Origin: Methyloversatilis sp. RAC08
GTDB taxonomy: Bacteria > Pseudomonadota > Gammaproteobacteria > Burkholderiales > Rhodocyclaceae
Length of the DNA: 64,000 nucleotides
Assembly (NCBI RefSeq): GCF_001713355.1
Contig: NZ_CP016448.1
Coordinates: 3,410,001-3,474,000 of the forward strand
Reading direction: 5' to 3'
The position numbers and the translations under genes are program-made. Below the pieces are notes generated by a model. It was not told the origin of the DNA. It saw only the letters and a list, made by a program, of their open reading frames with translations, and did not search any database. The stretch's first letter is position 1; each line of letters opens with the position of its first letter. Below are positions 15,244-22,665 of this stretch, one piece after another.

Positions 15244-16131
15244 TCAGGCCTTGCTCATGCGACGACGCGCCATCATGCCGATCAGACCGAGACCCGACAG
15301 CAGCATGCCCCAGGTTTCGGGTTCCGGCACCGGTGCCATGAAGGATGCCGATGTGAAACCGCGCAGGTTGGCGTTCAGCGCGCCGTTGAACGTGGCCAGA
15401 CCGGTGCCCAGGTCAATCGAATAAAGCCCGCTGTCGCCGTTGTCCAGCGTCAGGGCTGCCCAGCCCATGCCGCTGGCGTCGATTTCGAAACCGTTGGCGC
15501 CGATCACGTTGCCCGAAATGCCGAGTGATCCGACCGTCGTGATGGTCGGGGCATTGAAGGCGGTCGGTGCGACGTGCAGCGTATCGGTCGTGGTGTTGAG
15601 GTAGTACAGCGCGGTCGATGCCGGGCCGCTCATCGCGGACGCGTCCGAGTTGGTGTAGGCGACAGCGCTGAAGCCGGACGGGATGACGCTGGCAGCATTG
15701 CCGACGACGCCCGTATTGACGTTGATCGCCAGGTTCTGACCGACATTGCTCACGTAACGCAGCGACGCCGCACCGGCGAAATCGGCAACCGGATTGAAGT
15801 CGATGCCGTAGGACAGCGAGGGATTGACCAGCGGGGTGTCGAGTGCCGCCATGAAGGTGGCCATGCCGCTCGACACGTCAAGCGTGTAGATGCGATTCAG
15901 GCTGCTGACGCCATACACCATGTTGTTGCTCGGGCGCAGATCGATGCCGAGGATGCGTTCGCCGGCGCCCAGGCCGGTGATCGACGTGAAAGTGGCCGCC
16001 GAAGTGTTGCTGCTGCTGATCATGCCGATTTCGTTTCCGGTCGTCAGACCGATGAAATCGGCAGCGCCGGCCGGGGTTGCGAGGGCGAGCGCGAGGGTGG
16101 ATGCCGCTGCCAACAGGGTTTTTTCGTACAT
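15244..16131 (-). CDS. DUF4394-type PEP-CTERM protein
   Basis: This 295-residue secreted protein starts at ATG 16131 (MYEKTLLAAASTLALALATP), which has a GGAGAGG sequence just upstream; the longer frame has no such signal. After the signal peptide, repeated beta-strand units (for example TSITGLGAGERILGIDLRPS and MVYGVSSLNRIYTLDVSSG) match the DUF4394 beta-propeller-like domain, which appears to consist of repeated Gly/Asp-rich blades. The C-terminus is a clean PEP-CTERM signal (VPEPETWGMLLSGLGLIGMMARRR). It is monocistronic with its own terminator. A role in surface or biofilm matrix is likely, but the ligand is unknown. Confidence 0.85.
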   Translation of the reverse strand: MYEKTLLAAASTLALALATPAGAADFIGLTTGNEIGMISSSNTSAATFTSITGLGAGERILGIDLRPSNNMVYGVSSLNRIYTLDVSSGMATFMAALDTPLVNPSLSYGIDFNPVADFAGAASLRYVSNVGQNLAINVNTGVVGNAASVIPSGFSAVAYTNSDASAMSGPASTALYYLNTTTDTLHVAPTAFNAPTITTVGSLGISGNVIGANGFEIDASGMGWAALTLDNGDSGLYSIDLGTGLATFNGALNANLRGFTSASFMAPVPEPETWGMLLSGLGLIGMMARRRMSKA

Positions 16132-16324
16132 GTCTGACCTCTCCGAAGAAAATGGTTGGGGAAATGGACGAGACCGCAACTCGAAAGCGCGTCGTCATTC
16201 CCACTACTCGGCAGAGGCTCAAACGGATGCAGGTATCACCGAACTTTCATGTTTCGAGGCAGAAAAATTCGAATCGGAGTAAAAAAACTTTTTACATCAG
16301 ATAGTTGTATTTTCATCTGAGCGT
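16132..16324. other. AT-rich intergenic region with short palindromes
   Basis: Between the divergent-tail response regulator and the DUF4394 gene lies an unusually AT-rich stretch (about 16255-16320) in otherwise GC-rich DNA. It holds a perfect GTAAAAA/TTTTTAC inverted repeat with a 3-nt spacer (16279-16295) and a CAGAT...ATCTG pair (about 16298-16319). It may be the promoter/operator of the leftward DUF4394 gene and/or the end of the response-regulator transcript. No standard sigma-70 pair is clear. Confidence 0.5.
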
Positions 16325-16768
16325 TCAGATTCGCGGTGGCGGCTCATTGATCAGCGCCCAGAAAATGCCCAGGCTGGTTACCGTGCGCGAAAACTGGTCG
16401 AAATCCACCGGTTTCACGACGTAGGCGTTGATGCCCAGGTCGTAGCAGCGGCGAAGGTCCGGATCTTCGCGCGAAGAGGTCATGATCACCACTGGAAGGG
16501 TGCGCAGGCTGTCGTCACGACGCATTTCGACCAGCATGTCGATGCCGCCCATGCGCGGCATGTTCAGGTCGAGCATCATGAACAGCGGTTGGCCACCTTC
16601 GCGCGTGGCGAAGCGGCCGCGCTTGTAGAGGTAGTCCAGCCCCTCGACCCCGTCGCGAACGACGACAATGTCGTTGGCGAGCTTGAGTTCGCCAAGGCTG
16701 AGCAGCATCAGTTCGACATCGTTGACGTTGTCTTCGACAACCAGAATGTCACGCAAGTGCAGGGACAT
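16325..16768 (-). CDS. Rcp1-type single-domain response regulator
   Basis: This 147-residue protein is a lone receiver domain. The acidic pocket is VVEDN, the phospho-acceptor is Asp67 in MMLDLNMP, and the signalling residues are the Thr/Ser in VVIMTSS and the Lys in YVVKPVDF. It has the longer alpha4-beta5 region typical of Rcp1 regulators that partner phytochrome-type kinases. There is no output domain, so it probably passes phosphate on or acts by protein contact. The start at 16768 has a GGAG upstream and lies 20 nt inside the 3' end of the kinase gene, making kinase and regulator translationally coupled. Confidence 0.9.
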   Translation of the reverse strand: MSLHLRDILVVEDNVNDVELMLLSLGELKLANDIVVVRDGVEGLDYLYKRGRFATREGGQPLFMMLDLNMPRMGGIDMLVEMRRDDSLRTLPVVIMTSSREDPDLRRCYDLGINAYVVKPVDFDQFSRTVTSLGIFWALINEPPPRI

Positions 16769-17948
16769 CGCTTGCTCCTGTGAAGGGATCTGCAGAACGC
16801 TCCACCGCGGCACGGACCCGCCGTGGCAAGGCGACGAAGAAGCTGGCACCTGCATTGGTTTCGCCGGTGGCCCAGACGCGGCCACCATGGCGCTCCACGA
16901 TGCGTTTCACGTTCGCCAGTCCGATACCGGTGCCTTCGAATTCGCTTGAATGATGCAGGCGCTGGAACACGCCGAACAGTTTGCCTGCATATTGCATGTC
17001 GAAACCGGCACCGTTGTCACGGATACGGAAAACGAGATCGTCGCCGCTGTCGTCGATGCAATCGACTTCGATCACTGCGGGTGCGCGGTCGCGCGAATAC
17101 TTCACTGCGTTGGCCATAAGGTTGTAGAAAACCTGGTAGAGCAGCTTCGGATCGGCCTGTACGTCCGGCAGTGCGCCGACTTTCAGTTCAACGACATGGC
17201 TGTCCATGTCGGGGGCAAGTTCTTCGGCCACCTCGGCGATCAGCGTGTTCATGTCGCAATGCTCCCGGCGCATTTCGGTGCGGCTGGCGCGTGAAAATGC
17301 GAGCAGACCTTCGACGATGTCGCTCAGGTGATGCACTGACGCCCGGATGCGCTCGATATAGCGCTGAGCCGGGTGGTCAGGCGGTGCCGGGTGCTTGTCG
17401 GCCAGCGCGCGCGCGAATCCTTCTATGTGCCGCAGCGGACCGCGCACGTCATGCGAGATGGCGTACGACAGCGATTCGAGTTCGTCGATCTGCTGCTTCA
17501 TCTGGCTGTTCAGCGCGCGCAGTTCGGCTTCGTACTGCTTGCGGCGGGTGATTTCAGCCTTCAGTTCGATGTTGGCCCGGCTGAGCGACTCGGGACTGGG
17601 CAGCGACAGCGCGATCGGGATCAGCCGCCACAGCATGATGGCCGTTCCGATCGATACGCCTGCGGTGAAAAGACGCAGCCAGCCGTCCAGCCAGAAATCC
17701 GGATACCACAGCGTCCAGATGTCCATCACATGGGTCAGGCCGCAGGCCATGATGAAGACGCCGAACATCACGAAGATCGGACCGAAACTCAGGTCCTCGC
17801 GACGGCGGACGAAGGACCACAACGTGATGGGTATCGAAAAGTAGGCGAGGACGATGAGCACGTTGGCCACTACGTGCAGCAGCAGCAAATCCTTCTGCCA
17901 GGAAAAACAGTAGCCGTGAGGCAACAGCGTCTGCAGGTCGTTCACCAT
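16749..17948 (-). CDS. Sensor histidine kinase with ethylene-receptor-like membrane domain
   Basis: This 399-residue kinase begins at ATG 17948, which has GAGG 8 nt upstream; ATG 17954 is in frame but too close to it. Three membrane helices (about 21-45, 54-80, 88-112) closely follow the plant ETR1 and cyanobacterial ethylene sensor domain: VLAYFSIP (with Tyr36, Ile39 and Pro40) and FIMACGLTHVMDIWT with Cys69 and His73, the Cu(I) ligands of ETR1. The residue in the place of ETR1 Asp25, at the identical 40-residue spacing from the Cys, is Asn29. A coiled coil leads to HisKA (His166 in YAISHDVRGPLRH) and HATPase (DNGAGFDMQYAGKLF, GTGIGLANVKRIVERHGG), typical of bacteriophytochrome-like kinases. 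Coupled to the Rcp-type regulator. Ligand is inferred, not shown. Confidence 0.88.
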   Translation of the reverse strand: MVNDLQTLLPHGYCFSWQKDLLLLHVVANVLIVLAYFSIPITLWSFVRRREDLSFGPIFVMFGVFIMACGLTHVMDIWTLWYPDFWLDGWLRLFTAGVSIGTAIMLWRLIPIALSLPSPESLSRANIELKAEITRRKQYEAELRALNSQMKQQIDELESLSYAISHDVRGPLRHIEGFARALADKHPAPPDHPAQRYIERIRASVHHLSDIVEGLLAFSRASRTEMRREHCDMNTLIAEVAEELAPDMDSHVVELKVGALPDVQADPKLLYQVFYNLMANAVKYSRDRAPAVIEVDCIDDSGDDLVFRIRDNGAGFDMQYAGKLFGVFQRLHHSSEFEGTGIGLANVKRIVERHGGRVWATGETNAGASFFVALPRRVRAAVERSADPFTGASDVPALA

Positions 17949-18081
17949 GTTCATTGCCTCGTGGTCTCGATCGTGGATGGCACGGCCTCCGCCATCATCG
18001 TAAGACCTTAGCGCACGCATTAGTTGCCGTCAGCAACCTAACGACCTGCAATACGGCGTGAATTCACATGTCGAGACCAGG

Positions 18082-18840
18082 TTACTCGACGCCTCGCGCA
18101 CTTGTACGTTCCTGCTCGATGCGCAGGATGTAACGCTGGATCAATGCATCGGCGGTGGCCGGCAGGCCGATGAACTGGCAACCGGCACGCAGTTCGCTGC
18201 CGCCGCGTTCGGTGACGCGGAACATGTTGCGCACCTGCAGCGTGGCGGTGATGGTGCCCAGTTCGGGCAACATGATCTGGCACTGGTCGATCAAGCTGTC
18301 GACCGACAGGTTCAGGCTGCTCGGTGGCGCCACCACGGCCAGTCCGCCACCCGAAATATCCACGATGTTTGCCTCCGTCATGCGTCCGTTGCCGTCACCG
18401 GTCGGGATCAGGCAGCGCAGGCGCGGATTGGGCGGCACGATGAGGCGATAGTAGTCACGCCGCTGCAGGCGCAGCATGCGCGTCGGCAGCGGAATCTCCA
18501 GCGCCTGGCCACCCTCGAATTCGACGCCGCGGCAGCGCGGTACCATGAATTGAACCTTCACCTTTTCCAGCGAGGTGAGGCAGACGAGTGGTGAGGACTT
18601 GAGCGCCTTTTCGAGGTGCTTCTCGTCACGCGGCGCATCGAGCACCACCGCGCCGCGCGCTTCGTCGATGTCCAGTAGAGCGGTCAGAAAGGGCTCGCTG
18701 GAACGGCCGGCATAGACCGAGATGTTGGCCTTCTGGTCCTTGATCGCGCGCAGGTAGAACAAGATGTCGGTCGTGCCGTCCAGCACGTAGCGGGCGAAGT
18801 CGTCGGCTTCTAGCAGATCGAACCGGATGTCCTCGGTCAT
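18082..18840 (-). CDS. ycgR: Flagellar brake protein YcgR (PilZ c-di-GMP effector)
   Basis: This 252-residue protein has an N-terminal YcgR domain (about residues 10-120) and a C-terminal PilZ domain. The c-di-GMP-binding motif is complete: RRDYYR (Arg-rich loop, around residue 127-132) and DISGGG (D/N-x-S-x-x-G). When c-di-GMP is bound YcgR slows or biases the flagellar motor by contacting FliG/MotA. It lies next to a second flagellar cluster (flhB-like, fliK-like, fliTSD) and about 6 kb from a diguanylate cyclase gene that could supply the signal. Length matches the family. Confidence 0.92.
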   Translation of the reverse strand: MTEDIRFDLLEADDFARYVLDGTTDILFYLRAIKDQKANISVYAGRSSEPFLTALLDIDEARGAVVLDAPRDEKHLEKALKSSPLVCLTSLEKVKVQFMVPRCRGVEFEGGQALEIPLPTRMLRLQRRDYYRLIVPPNPRLRCLIPTGDGNGRMTEANIVDISGGGLAVVAPPSSLNLSVDSLIDQCQIMLPELGTITATLQVRNMFRVTERGGSELRAGCQFIGLPATADALIQRYILRIEQERTSARGVE

Positions 18841-18907
18841 GGAATGCGTCCTGTCGGTGTGCCGCGCCTGATTGCGCAGGACTGCGGCGGTGCGTTGGAG
18901 GGCAAGG

Positions 18908-19207
18908 TCAGGCGGGCACCCTGATGGTCGATGGCGGTGCGGCGTTCAGGCCTTTTTCGACACGATAGATCCACGCCAGCAGTTCGGCTACGGCGACATA
19001 CAGTTCGGGCGGGATGCGCTGGTCGAGATCGAGTCCCATCAGCAGGGCGACCATTTCACGCGATTCATGCACGAAGACGCCAGCCTCCCGCGCACGCCGG
19101 ATGATTTCGTCGGCCACCAGCCCGCGGCCCTTGGCCACGACGCGCGGCGCGGCATCACCGGCACCGTAGGCCATGGCGACCGCCTGGGCGCGGGCAGATT
19201 GCGTCAT
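18908..19207 (-). CDS. FlhB C-terminal-domain-like protein
   Basis: This 99-residue protein resembles the cytoplasmic C-terminal part of FlhB (FlhB_C/EscU group): VAMAYGAGDAAPRVVAKGRG, IRRAREAGVFVHESREMVALLM, and IPPELYVAVAELLAWIYRVE. The NPTH autocleavage sequence of FlhB is absent, so it cannot undergo the specificity-switch cleavage. Such stand-alone copies (often called FlhX or YlqH) occur in several bacteria. They can replace or modulate the cleaved FlhB fragment at the export gate. It overlaps the upstream fliK-like gene by 4 nt, which ties it to hook-length control. Confidence 0.85.
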   Translation of the reverse strand: MTQSARAQAVAMAYGAGDAAPRVVAKGRGLVADEIIRRAREAGVFVHESREMVALLMGLDLDQRIPPELYVAVAELLAWIYRVEKGLNAAPPSTIRVPA

Positions 19208-20385
19208 GCCATCACCTGCGCGCCAGCAGGACCGGACGTGTCGTCCTCGGCCGCCTCGGTCGGCTCACCTTCGGTAATCGGTGCTGCATCGCCGAAGGTC
19301 ACCTGACCCAGACGCAGTCCGGCGTCGCTCATGCGCTGCTGCAGCTCGAGCAGGGCGCCGCCCATGCGCAGCCGCGCCTCCGGATCACTGGAAAAACTGA
19401 GTGCGATGCCATGGTCGCGCCACAGCGTCAGGGATGTTTCGATTTCCCCCAGACCGGGCAGCACCAGACGCAGACGCGAGGTCCAGGGTACATCGGCGTC
19501 TGCTTCTGCAGCGACCTCGTCGGCGCGTCCGTCGGCGCGCGGGTCATCGATCTCGATCTTCATCATCTGTCCGGGCCAGGCGAGTCCTTCCCAGGCGAGC
19601 GAGTGCTGTGACAGGCCCAGCAACTGGTTGTGCACCAGCGGTCGCAATTCGGCTGGCGTTGCGGAATCTGCGCGCGCGGCTTCGGCCTTTTCCGGGGCGG
19701 CTGCGTCGCTGATCTGTGCGAATTCGGCGCCGGCCCGCGCAAGCGTTGCGGTATCGGCGCGCTGCCCGGCGGCCGGCGTTGCACGGGTGTGTGGATCAAA
19801 GGCACGCTGCGGTTCGCGCTCGGTGGATTCGATCGTGCGCTCGCCGCTGACCCACTGCGCCTGGTGCGACTCGTAGAACAGGCCGCTCTGGCCGATCGCG
19901 CTCGCCAGCCGGCCGGCAATCAGTGGTGTCGCGGCGGCGTCGGTCACGTTGGCGCTCGCGCGCAGCATCGCCGGATCAATCAATGCCTGCCCGGCCGACA
20001 GGCGGGTCGGCGGTGGCGCCGGGCGGTCGAGCAGGGCGCTGATGGCACGCGCCGGCTCGCTGAGGCTGACATCGGCAGTTTCGCCGGCCGCGGAATCCGG
20101 GACCAGCGTGGCAATCAGTGTCTGCGCATTGCGCGAAACGTGGGTGAGGGTGACCGTGCTGCCTTCGCGCGCGCCCTGCGGAAGCTGCAGCGTGACCATC
20201 TGACCGGCCACCTGGGCGCGTGCGCGCCCGTCCTGCAGGTTCTGGATGATCTGTGCGGTGTAGCGTTCGCCGGGCTGGAATTCAGGCAGCTGTTCGCCGA
20301 TCGGGCTGACCGGACCGGCGACCTGCACCGAGCCGCGGGCCAGTTCCGCAAGACGTTGCGAGATGCCCGGCAGCAGGTTGTTCAT
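19204..20385 (-). CDS. FliK-like flagellar hook-length control domain protein
   Basis: The 393-residue protein has a Gln/Ala-rich, low-complexity N-terminal half and a C-terminal domain (about residues 265-370: PWTSRLRLVLPGLGEIETSL, then DHGIALSFSSDPEARLRMGG and LLELQQRMSDAGLRLGQVTF) with the features of the FliK C-terminal (Flg_hook) domain that binds FlhB. The true fliK is in the fliF-J operon at 1-268, so this is a second FliK-type protein. It precedes and overlaps the FlhB C-terminal-like gene by 4 nt, a pairing that suggests they interact as FliK and FlhB do. Confidence 0.8.
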   Translation of the reverse strand: MNNLLPGISQRLAELARGSVQVAGPVSPIGEQLPEFQPGERYTAQIIQNLQDGRARAQVAGQMVTLQLPQGAREGSTVTLTHVSRNAQTLIATLVPDSAAGETADVSLSEPARAISALLDRPAPPPTRLSAGQALIDPAMLRASANVTDAAATPLIAGRLASAIGQSGLFYESHQAQWVSGERTIESTEREPQRAFDPHTRATPAAGQRADTATLARAGAEFAQISDAAAPEKAEAARADSATPAELRPLVHNQLLGLSQHSLAWEGLAWPGQMMKIEIDDPRADGRADEVAAEADADVPWTSRLRLVLPGLGEIETSLTLWRDHGIALSFSSDPEARLRMGGALLELQQRMSDAGLRLGQVTFGDAAPITEGEPTEAAEDDTSGPAGAQVMA

Positions 20386-20389
20386 GCGT

Positions 20390-20689
20390 TCAGCCGTTTT
20401 CGGCCCGGCCTGCCGGCAGCTTGCCGAGGAACACCTTGACCTGTGCCATCCAAGGCTCGACGTGGCGGCGCACTTCGGCGTCGTGGGCGAGTATCTGTTT
20501 CATCAGCGCAACCTTGCGGGCGCGCTCGGAGGGCGAAGTCGCTTCTTCGTCGTTGTCGGCGATGCGCTGGCGCAGCGCGGACACGTCGAGTTCGAGCGTG
20601 ACCAGGCGGTCCCAGTCGTTGGCGCGCGCGGCATCAACCATGTGACTGGAGATCTGGTGCATGTCTTCGAGCAGGGGCAGTGAATTCAT
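20390..20689 (-). CDS. fliT: Flagellar protein FliT (FliD chaperone)
   Basis: This 99-residue all-helical protein (MNSLPLLEDMHQISSHMVDA) fits the FliT family by length, helical pattern and position after fliD-fliS. FliT is the export chaperone for the filament cap FliD and, in enterics, an anti-FlhDC factor. The sequence is only moderately similar to FliT, so identification rests on size, coiled-coil character and gene order. It stops 4 nt before the FliK-like gene, so the two are likely co-transcribed. Confidence 0.78.
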   Translation of the reverse strand: MNSLPLLEDMHQISSHMVDAARANDWDRLVTLELDVSALRQRIADNDEEATSPSERARKVALMKQILAHDAEVRRHVEPWMAQVKVFLGKLPAGRAENG

Positions 20690-20799
20690 GTCGTCGGGCC
20701 GTCGTGCAGGAGGTACCGGTTAGTCAATGAGCGTACAGGCGGGCAGCGGTTCGGAGGCGCACATGTAAGTGGTAATTACCGTGCAATTTCCGCTTTTGC
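20690..20799. other. Short intergenic region with perfect palindrome
   Basis: The spacer between fliS and fliT holds the 10-bp palindrome GGTAATTACC (20771-20780) flanked by CATGTA...TACATG copies (20762-20767 and 20800-20805). It could be an operator for a transcript starting at fliT. Nothing else is seen. Confidence 0.35.
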
Positions 20800-21213
20800 C
20801 TACATGGGCGCGCCTTGCGACAGCTTCTGCCTGATTTCTTCCCAGGCATCCTTCAATTCGCCCAGCAGGTGGCTGACTTCTTCCAGTGCGGCGCGGTCGT
20901 TGTGGGCATTGGCATGCAGCAGGCGCGCGCACATGTAGTCGTACAGGGCATACAGCCGCTGCGCCAGTTCGCCGCCGGCGTCCAGATCCAGACTCACCTT
21001 GAGGCCGTTGCCGATGATGTCGATGGCACGCGAAATCGACAGGCCCTTGCCCGCGGTTTCACCCATTTCCATCTGGTGGCTCGCGGTGGATACCGACATC
21101 AGCGCACCGTCGAACAACATCAGGATAAGCAGGTGCGGATCGGCTCCGGCTACCCGGGTTTCCATTCCGACCTGTGCGTAAGCCATGTGCGGATTCGAAA
21201 GCGAAGCAAACAT
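20800..21213 (-). CDS. fliS: Flagellar export chaperone FliS
   Basis: This 137-residue helical protein has the FliS signature: YAQVGMETRVAGADPHLLIL near the start, LMLFDGALMSVSTA, and the four-helix bundle that binds the flagellin C-terminus and prevents premature polymerisation. Length matches the family (about 130-140). It is 34 nt downstream of fliD, in the usual fliD-fliS order. Confidence 0.95.
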   Translation of the reverse strand: MFASLSNPHMAYAQVGMETRVAGADPHLLILMLFDGALMSVSTASHQMEMGETAGKGLSISRAIDIIGNGLKVSLDLDAGGELAQRLYALYDYMCARLLHANAHNDRAALEEVSHLLGELKDAWEEIRQKLSQGAPM

Positions 21214-21246
21214 GAAAGTCCCTTTTCCCCGGTCGTGGTGAGTGCA

Positions 21247-22665
21247 TCAGCTCGACGATATCGTCGGCAGATTGGCCAGTTGTTGCGTCAGATAGTTGCT
21301 GGTGGCGGTCATGTTGCTGATCAGTGTGTCGAGCGCGCTGAATTGCTTGCGGTAGCGCGCCTCGATCGTCAGCAGGCGGTCGGACATCGCTTCGGCGCGC
21401 TTCTCCAACGACTTGGCGGCTGCGGTCAACCCTTCGGTGCGGCTGGAAATGAGGCCGCCAGCGTCGATCATGTCGTCCATCAGGCCGGTCAGCCGGCTGC
21501 CCATGCCCTTGACGTCATCGAAGCCGCGGAACAGCTTTTCCACGTTTCCGTTGTCGAGCGCAGTCGTGAGTTTGGTCGAGTCGATTGCCAGCTTGCCGTC
21601 CTTCTCCACCGATACGCCGATGGACGACAGATTCAGGCCGGGGGCGATCGAGGTGCCGACCAGGGCACTCAGGCGGTTGCGCAATGCCAGCATCGTGCTC
21701 TCGCCATTCAGCGTGGCGGCTTGGTCGGTTTCCGTGTTGTAGCTGGTCTGCGTCTTGATGATCCCGAGTGCATCGTTGTAGGCCTTGACGAGACGCTCGA
21801 CGCCGCTGCGGGCGACGCTCGTGTCATTGGTGACGGAGACCACGGTAGGCGAGCCGACGTTGGTCTTCTTCAGGCTCAGCGTCACACCCTCGATCGCGTC
21901 GGTCAGCGTGTTCGTACTCGATGTGATGGCGATGCCATTGACCGTCAGCGTGGCGTCGGAGGCCGGAATCATCTGCGACAGGCGCGAGGTGCCGCCGGTC
22001 GATGCGTCGTAGATCAGGCGCGACAGTCCCGCGTCGTCGGTGTTGTTGCCGTCGTCGTCGGTGGCGGTGATCTTCACCGTGTTTTCGGTTCCGCCATCGA
22101 CCGAGCGCAGCACCAGGCGATGGCCGGTGCCGTCATTGACGAGCGAGGCGGTGACGCCCGCGTCGGCGTCGTTGATGGCGTCGCGCACGTCGGCCAGCGA
22201 CATCGCATCGCTGCCGATGGTGATGTTGACGGCGGCCTTGTCCGGGTTGGCGGTGAATGCGCCGGCGTCGTACTTGCCCAGCTGTATGGTCAGCGTGCCG
22301 CTGCCGACGCTGGCTGTGCTGCCCGCGAACTGGCCGGACGCAACCACTTGCGATTCAGCCAGCGTATTGACTTCAAGCGTGTAGTTGCCGGCAACCGCCG
22401 TTTGCGTACCGGCAACTGTTGCCACGTCGGCATTGCCGATGGCTGCCTTGCGTGCGGTAAAAGTTGCCGCATTCGACAGGGCGGTGGCGGCAGACTGGAT
22501 GGATGACAACGCACCCTTGATGGAACCGTAGGCGGAAATCTTCGCCTGTACGCCGGCTTCCTTCTGCGCGAGCAGCGTCAGCGGGCGCTGTTCGAGCGAC
22601 ATCAACTGCGATACGAGGCCTGAAACGTCAAGCCCGGAGCCGATTCCTGCGGAAGAGATGGCCAT
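21247..22665 (-). CDS. fliD: Flagellar filament cap protein FliD (HAP2)
   Basis: This 472-residue protein starts MAISSAGIGSGLDVSGLVSQ and ends with a coiled-coil region followed by TLISNMTATSNYLTQQLANL, both diagnostic for FliD. The D0/D1 helical ends flank beta-rich D2/D3 domains (about 100-330). FliD pentamers cap the growing filament and fold incoming flagellin. It follows flaG by 13 nt and precedes fliS by 33 nt. The start (22665) has a short spacer to a weak GAGGGGC upstream. Confidence 0.95.
   Translation of the reverse strand: MAISSAGIGSGLDVSGLVSQLMSLEQRPLTLLAQKEAGVQAKISAYGSIKGALSSIQSAATALSNAATFTARKAAIGNADVATVAGTQTAVAGNYTLEVNTLAESQVVASGQFAGSTASVGSGTLTIQLGKYDAGAFTANPDKAAVNITIGSDAMSLADVRDAINDADAGVTASLVNDGTGHRLVLRSVDGGTENTVKITATDDDGNNTDDAGLSRLIYDASTGGTSRLSQMIPASDATLTVNGIAITSSTNTLTDAIEGVTLSLKKTNVGSPTVVSVTNDTSVARSGVERLVKAYNDALGIIKTQTSYNTETDQAATLNGESTMLALRNRLSALVGTSIAPGLNLSSIGVSVEKDGKLAIDSTKLTTALDNGNVEKLFRGFDDVKGMGSRLTGLMDDMIDAGGLISSRTEGLTAAAKSLEKRAEAMSDRLLTIEARYRKQFSALDTLISNMTATSNYLTQQLANLPTISSS

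Follow-up and report, generated by a model that had tools for sequence, protein, structure and literature searches.

A putative ethylene receptor of Methyloversatilis with natural Asp/Asn variation at the ETR1 Asp25 position, and the association of this residue with a helix-3 lysine across bacteria

The freshwater bacterium Methyloversatilis sp. RAC08 carries a sensor histidine kinase of the ethylene-receptor family in which both copper ligands are kept and the residue at the ETR1 Asp25 position is Asn. Within the genus, one change at this key sensor residue, retained thereafter, has probably lowered ethylene sensitivity, and a low-affinity ethylene receptor is the most likely reading of the RAC08 kinase, one that we hold with modest confidence. 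What is new here is the Asn event within a single genus, its retention under selection, and the statistical coupling of positions 25 and 91 (ETR1 numbering) across bacteria; variants at this Asp are not new as such, because a 2026 review already reports natural ones (PMC13012798).

Kinase gene and overlapping regulator gene

The window, i.e., the whole stretch of 64,000 nucleotides that was analysed, belongs to a genome of 3.94 Mb in a single contig. The kinase and regulator features are as follows.

16749 to 17948, minus strand: ETR1_N sensor histidine kinase, 399 aa (Pfam; matched over almost its full length in 11 other Methyloversatilis genomes)
17451 to 17453, minus strand: His166, putative phospho-acceptor in SYAISHDVRGPL (inside the HisKA match; residue read by eye)
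16325 to 16768, minus strand: single-domain Rcp-like response regulator, 147 aa, with putative phospho-acceptor Asp67 read by eye (Response_reg, 59 bits; Rcp structures)

The kinase frame begins with the ATG at 17948 and its stop codon ends at 16749. A longer frame from an ATG at 18020 is the alternative; a GAGG lies 8 bases before 17948 (by eye), and the frame of one orthologue (L002/L091) measures 405 aa from stop to stop, about six codons beyond what the start at 17948 gives. The ETR1_N profile (PF25487) scores 126.9-130.7 bits against a cut-off of 27 (130.7 in the genome search, 130.3 for the sensor alone and 126.9 for the frame from 18020), and a profile search finds it once in the RAC08 genome and in none of 14 control genomes. 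In the frame from 18020, HisKA (41.0 bits) and HATPase_c (87.0 bits) also exceed their Pfam cut-offs, and with the co-encoded receiver they form an orthodox two-component pair. No PAS or GAF family of Pfam matches between the sensor and the kinase core, and no phytochrome photosensor is found among the Pfam matches of the kinase. Among full-length named matches to the kinase, the top four are all Methyloversatilis records, with identities of 72-96%.

The regulator gene starts at the ATG at 16768 and overlaps the kinase gene by 20 bases, including the kinase stop codon; Response_reg, which exceeds its cut-off, is its sole Pfam domain, with no output domain attached. Both the C-terminal kinase and the overlapping single-domain regulator proposed in the first-pass annotation are recovered. 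The annotation had also called the regulator Rcp-type, and this label is fair because, among characterised proteins, Rcp receivers (RcpA 88, RcpB 81 and Rcp1 70 bits) outscore the chemotaxis proteins that bear the name CheY, none of which exceeds 41 bits. The top solved matches are 5ic5 (162 bits, 'Candidate response regulator, CheY') and 5brj (157 bits, under a general depositor name); 3heb, also CheY-named, reaches 95 bits, and none of these three bears an Rcp name.

Sensor domain and its residues

The features of the sensor part of the kinase are listed below.

17601 to 17888 (genome 3427601-3427888), minus strand: sensor domain, residues 21-116 aligned to ETR1_N (Pfam, AlphaFold2)
17862 to 17864, minus strand: Asn29, codon AAC, at the ETR1 Asp25 position (alignment)
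17742 to 17744, minus strand: Cys69, at the position of ETR1 Cys65, a Cu(I) ligand (alignment)
17730 to 17732, minus strand: His73, at the position of ETR1 His69, a Cu(I) ligand (alignment)
17673 to 17675, minus strand: Arg92, at the position of AzoEtr1 Lys98 and ETR1 Lys91 (spacing from the ligand His and alignment)

A membrane domain of the ETR1/SynEtr1 type had been read from the sequence at the outset, and a profile search had been proposed as its check. That search bears the reading out: the sensor alone matches ETR1_N, every other Pfam family stays below its cut-off, and no unrelated three-helix family appeared. The AlphaFold2 model (12 sequences; mean pLDDT 81.7, pTM 0.63) has three long helices at residues 19-49, 56-81 and 85-115, followed by a further helix. 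Cys69 and His73, with the CxxxH spacing of the copper ligands, lie within the modelled helix 56-81 and align to Cys65 and His69 of ETR1, as the first-pass annotation had assigned them. Against the PDB, a sequence search with the sensor gave no match below E 0.32 and Foldseek gave none at E 0.001 or better; the Foldseek result is neutral, because the sequence search found no sensor of the ETR1_N family in the PDB.

We take the seven residues required for ethylene binding by ETR1 to be Asp25 and the equivalents of Tyr36, Ile39, Pro40, Ile66, Cys69 and His73 of the RAC08 sensor. Six of the seven are kept in RAC08, and Asn29 replaces Asp25. A set of seven required residues in ETR1, with D25, C65 and H69 named, is reported in the AzoEtr1 paper (PMC11819568). 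The placing of Asn29 at the Asp25 position, 40 residues from the ligand Cys, was part of the original claim and stands, the distance being that of D35-C75 in the published numbering of AzoEtr1 (PMC11819568), whose Asp35 is present in the sequence compared here. Similarly, Arg92 follows His73 by 19 residues, and its equivalence to Lys98 and Lys91 is drawn because the published AzoEtr1 numbers give the same 19-residue spacing between the ligand His79 and Lys98. We class the RAC08 protein as an ETR1_N member that would work like an ethylene receptor, its status as a functional receptor being putative.

The kinase-regulator pair within Methyloversatilis

One ETR1_N kinase is present in each of 12 of the 13 Methyloversatilis genomes (four loci of the family set, L002, L003, L004 and L009, are the genomes G008, G009, G010 and G005 and are counted once). 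The overlapping regulator accompanies it in the RAC08 window and in all 11 of the other kinase-bearing genomes, the same 17 coding bases being shared; in the thirteenth genome, G012, the ETR1_N profile has no match and no regulator exceeds 45% identity. Judged by this joint presence in 12 of 13 genomes and joint absence from G012, kinase and regulator are inherited together.

In 11 of the 12 genomes the pair adjoins the cluster fliD-fliS-fliT-fliK-like-flhB'-ycgR, directly after ycgR in eight and with an intervening PEP-CTERM gene in three. In G011 the pair lies in another context, with none of those flagellar genes inside the 13 kb taken. The closest gene of the cluster in RAC08 is the following.

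18082 to 18840, minus strand: ycgR-like gene (PilZN and PilZ), upstream of the pair (Pfam above cut-offs, synteny)

On this gene the NCBIfam YcgR model reaches only 51 of 400 bits. Most of the Methyloversatilis genomes compared share the genes at 18082-22665 of the window (ycgR-like, flhB C-terminal-like, fliK-like, fliT, fliS and fliD); a genome announcement calls Methyloversatilis non-motile (PMC11556028). At 15244-16179 the window encodes a PEP-CTERM protein with DUF4394, a relative of which lies between ycgR and the kinase gene, rather than downstream, in G001-G003.

Asp/Asn change inside the genus

The codon at the Asp25 position is AAC (Asn) in six of the 12 orthologues (G000, G004, G005, G008, G009 and G010) and GAC (Asp) in the other six (G001, G002, G003, G006, G007 and G011). 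On a tree of kinase and regulator built without that column, a single D/N change suffices, and the Asn group has support of 90/91. The genus tree is unrooted, and we take the change to have run from Asp to Asn because Asp occupies the position in 171 of 199 distinct domains of the family. At the Lys91 position all 12 orthologues have an Arg codon, Asp and Asn species alike.

The Asn receptors are under purifying selection and are not decaying, as judged from the substitution ratios. With mean pairwise dN divided by mean pairwise dS (NG86, 15 pairs per group, some with dS >1), dN/dS of the sensor comes to 0.114 among the Asn orthologues and 0.147 among the Asp orthologues; the corresponding values are 0.147 and 0.289 for the kinase and 0.105 and 0.237 for the regulator. 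In both groups the sensor value is below that of the kinase.

Proposed mechanism and alternative explanations

The proposed mechanism starts from features established at the level of sequence, namely the family assignment, the residues of the copper ligands, Asn29 and Arg92, the domains of kinase and receiver, joint inheritance and purifying selection. In a dimer, Cys69 and His73 would hold Cu(I), to which ethylene would bind inside the membrane, presumably more weakly than in Asp-bearing relatives because Asn29 stands at the Asp25 position and Arg92 at that of Lys91, the predicted partner of Asp25. The signal would run down the third helix directly into the kinase, no PAS or GAF domain intervening, and would alter autophosphorylation of His166 and then phosphotransfer to Asp67 of the Rcp-like regulator. 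Finally, the regulator, having no output domain, would act by contacting other proteins, perhaps in the control of motility or of attachment to surfaces, an output proposed because of the flagellar neighbour genes. A motility output is suggested by these neighbours and, by analogy, by the Synechocystis precedent (phototaxis and twitching); it is weakened because deletion of AzoEtr1 is reported to leave swimming of A. brasilense unchanged (PMC11819568).

It was suggested in the first-pass annotation that the Asn could alter affinity, and this agrees, by analogy, with published work on ETR1, in which the Asp-to-Asn form is described as a functional receptor with about 100-fold lower affinity (PMC13012798). 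Points against the low-affinity reading are the reported elimination of ETR1 binding by mutation of D25 (PMC11819568), by which the Asn form could be non-binding, the different context of the pair in G011 and the low scores of the AzoEtr1 regulator (28.5 bits) and of the AzoEtr1 kinase beyond the sensor (42.7 bits).

An unlikely alternative, yet the likeliest of those considered, is that the copper site serves another ligand, the Asn/Arg form having been retuned to another alkene, to carbon monoxide or to copper itself. Such a shift would fit a sensor that keeps both copper ligands but lacks the residue linked to high ethylene affinity, as well as the continued selection on the Asn group and the repeated Asp/Asn changes that the family tree described below needs. 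On the other hand, no alkene or copper enzyme is found among the nine neighbouring proteins scanned, and ETR1 with Asn is reported to function still as a receptor (PMC13012798).

Less likely still is that gas sensing has been lost and that the kinase is constitutive or driven by another cue, e.g., light or membrane state. The Asn form could be non-binding, because mutation of D25 is reported to eliminate binding in ETR1 (PMC11819568); SynEtr1 of Synechocystis is described as responding also to UV-A light, and the predicted output bridge between Asp and Lys is absent in the RAC08 sensor. However, the sensor has a lower dN/dS than the kinase in Asn and Asp species, and 19 of the 22 Asn rows of the family set keep all six of the other binding residues.

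Coupling of positions 25 and 91 across the family

A bridge from the Asp at position 25 of ETR1 to a conserved lysine has been modelled (PMC13012798), and D25 is predicted to bond with K91 (PMC11819568). For the family as a whole, 236 domains were collected from genome profile searches, named loci and 13 plasmid records out of 19 (six records, from Azospirillum, were left out); in the cyanobacterial search, 33 of the 105 places listed, mostly lower-scoring, were not taken. Among 218 distinct domains, 199 had both copper ligands and both positions readable, and 19 distinct rows were dropped. Position 25 is D in 171 of the 199, N in 22, E in four, S in one and G in one. Lys stands at position 91 in 147 of the 171 D rows versus four of the 22 N rows (Fisher p = 3e-8 after clustering at 80% identity, with deeper relatedness unaccounted for). 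Split by locus origin, Lys accompanies N in 0/14 and D in 89/100 rows outside cyanobacteria, and N in 4/8 and D in 58/71 rows within them. An initial statement that Asn and Lys never occur together (no case among the first 105 domains) was dropped, as the larger set contains L193, L211, L243 and L256, all from the cyanobacterial search.

A sensor tree of 197 domains, with positions 25 and 91 removed and two gappy rows dropped, requires at least 11 D/N changes and at least 13 Lys/other changes. For the 191 rows with D or N, the dependent model of Pagel is preferred over the independent one (LR 26.0, 4 df, p 3e-5). The fitted rate of Asp-to-Asn change is about 3 to 10 times higher after Lys loss, and that of Lys loss is many times higher given Asn. 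Arg is already present in the Asp domains nearest to the Asn rows in three lineages, namely Methyloversatilis, L122/L123 (next to L127/L129/L137) and cyanobacterial rows (next to L252/L257). Loss of Lys before the appearance of Asn is not an obligatory order, because the four Asn and Lys rows have Asp and Lys in their nearest Asp relatives.

It is improbable, more so than either alternative above, that shared ancestry has created a spurious association and that the Asn is a neutral one-off. Such an explanation would be in keeping with the independent-pairs test on the sensor tree, which had no power (five supported pairs, median p 0.5), with the four rows that combine Asn and Lys, and with the weaker contrast inside cyanobacteria. 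Against it, an LR of 22-26 persists when Methyloversatilis (12 rows) or a second clade (five rows) is removed and on three tree methods, FastTree and PMSF among them, and none of 100 simulated null sets reaches 26.0, the highest being 13.0 in null fits that had fewer restarts than the real data. In a column control, the same fit against Asn was made for all 95 columns, apart from 25, that showed six or more departures; position 91 came first, the second-best column had an LR of 12.3 and the median was 2.4. These results support the joint evolution of Asn and loss of Lys91 that the model of an Asp-Lys bridge predicts, and the coupling across the family provides independent evidence that both residues would work together. 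As for a sensor that is an unrelated three-helix membrane module, e.g., of MASE type, its probability is negligible in view of the Pfam ETR1_N scores, and nothing in its favour was found, the sole MASE-named NCBIfam match being confined to the kinase part (residues 127-381, 79 of 560 bits).

Other forms of the sensor were also seen in the family set. Four domains (L114, L094, L143 and L152) have Glu at the Asp25 position, with Lys91 kept in three of them. Five ETR1_N-like domains (L145, L105, L146, L171 and L172; in open frames of 412-636 aa) are without the ligand Cys, the ligand His or both and are possible copper-free sensors. Cyanobacteria have up to nine ETR1_N matches per genome (G1397 and others), with at least one in 45 of 146 sampled genomes. 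In L306, on plasmid p2 of Novosphingobium sp. ES2-1, which is typed as conjugative, an ETR1_N kinase gene overlaps a response-regulator gene, and a type II Cas9 gene lies beyond a small hypothetical gene next to this pair.

Implications

The two primary papers on the Asn form of ETR1 are Azhar 2023 and Aman 2025. No statement on covariation of D25 and K91 was found in the literature searched, these primary papers lying outside that search, which also gave no paper for 'ethylene receptor' with D25N. Among the matches listed, K91 in connection with ethylene binding led to the AzoEtr1 paper only, and Methyloversatilis with ethylene led to none on a receptor by title.

As a tentative generalisation, for which we would claim somewhat less than for the reading of the RAC08 kinase, bacterial ethylene receptors may repeatedly retune in two steps, the helix-3 Lys being replaced, often by Arg, and Asp changing to Asn, with the copper site intact and affinity low. 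The second step in Methyloversatilis, falling within one genus, would then provide a natural series of high- and low-affinity orthologues, mostly beside the same flagellar genes. The very high affinity of the receptors and the coupling of binding to output are understood mostly from plant ETR1. Methyloversatilis offers a natural Asp-to-Asn change in otherwise matching receptors, mostly in the same gene place and with the predicted bridge partner already changed; comparison of orthologues from Asp and Asn species would test, in a simple system of two proteins, both the role of the Asp in affinity and its bridge to Lys.

Comparison with known receptors and regulators

AzoEtr1 was compared through the A. 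brasilense MTCC4039 sequence (L304), identified by its length of 525 aa and its Asp35, as published. Its sensor is 48% identical to that of RAC08 over 141 residues, and its kinase gene likewise overlaps a single-receiver gene (PMC11819568). Ethylene binding is reported for its first 130 residues, which bound 14C-ethylene in an assay that used the strain Sp245 version (PMC11819568). AzoEtr1 has Asp35 and Lys98, whereas RAC08 has Asn29 and Arg92; AzoEtr1 has a PAS domain, whereas the RAC08 kinase has no PAS match. Beyond the sensor the two kinases are only weakly similar, and the two regulators are distant.

Set beside RAC08 by its published description, SynEtr1 is likewise a bacterial ETR1-type sensor kinase, and it signals by phosphorelay to a response regulator, as is proposed for RAC08; it differs in that its regulator, slr1213, is described as raising transcription of csiR1 and slr1214. 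ETR1 of Arabidopsis, also compared by description, has a copper-dependent three-helix sensor, as is predicted for RAC08, and its Asn form is reported as weakened but functional (PMC13012798); it is a plant receptor, however, and its output is unlike that of the RAC08 kinase. Rcp1, RcpA and RcpB are single-domain receivers like the RAC08 regulator, which they match over nearly the whole domain, but the RAC08 partner kinase has no phytochrome photosensor in Pfam, and other, generally named solved receivers score higher.
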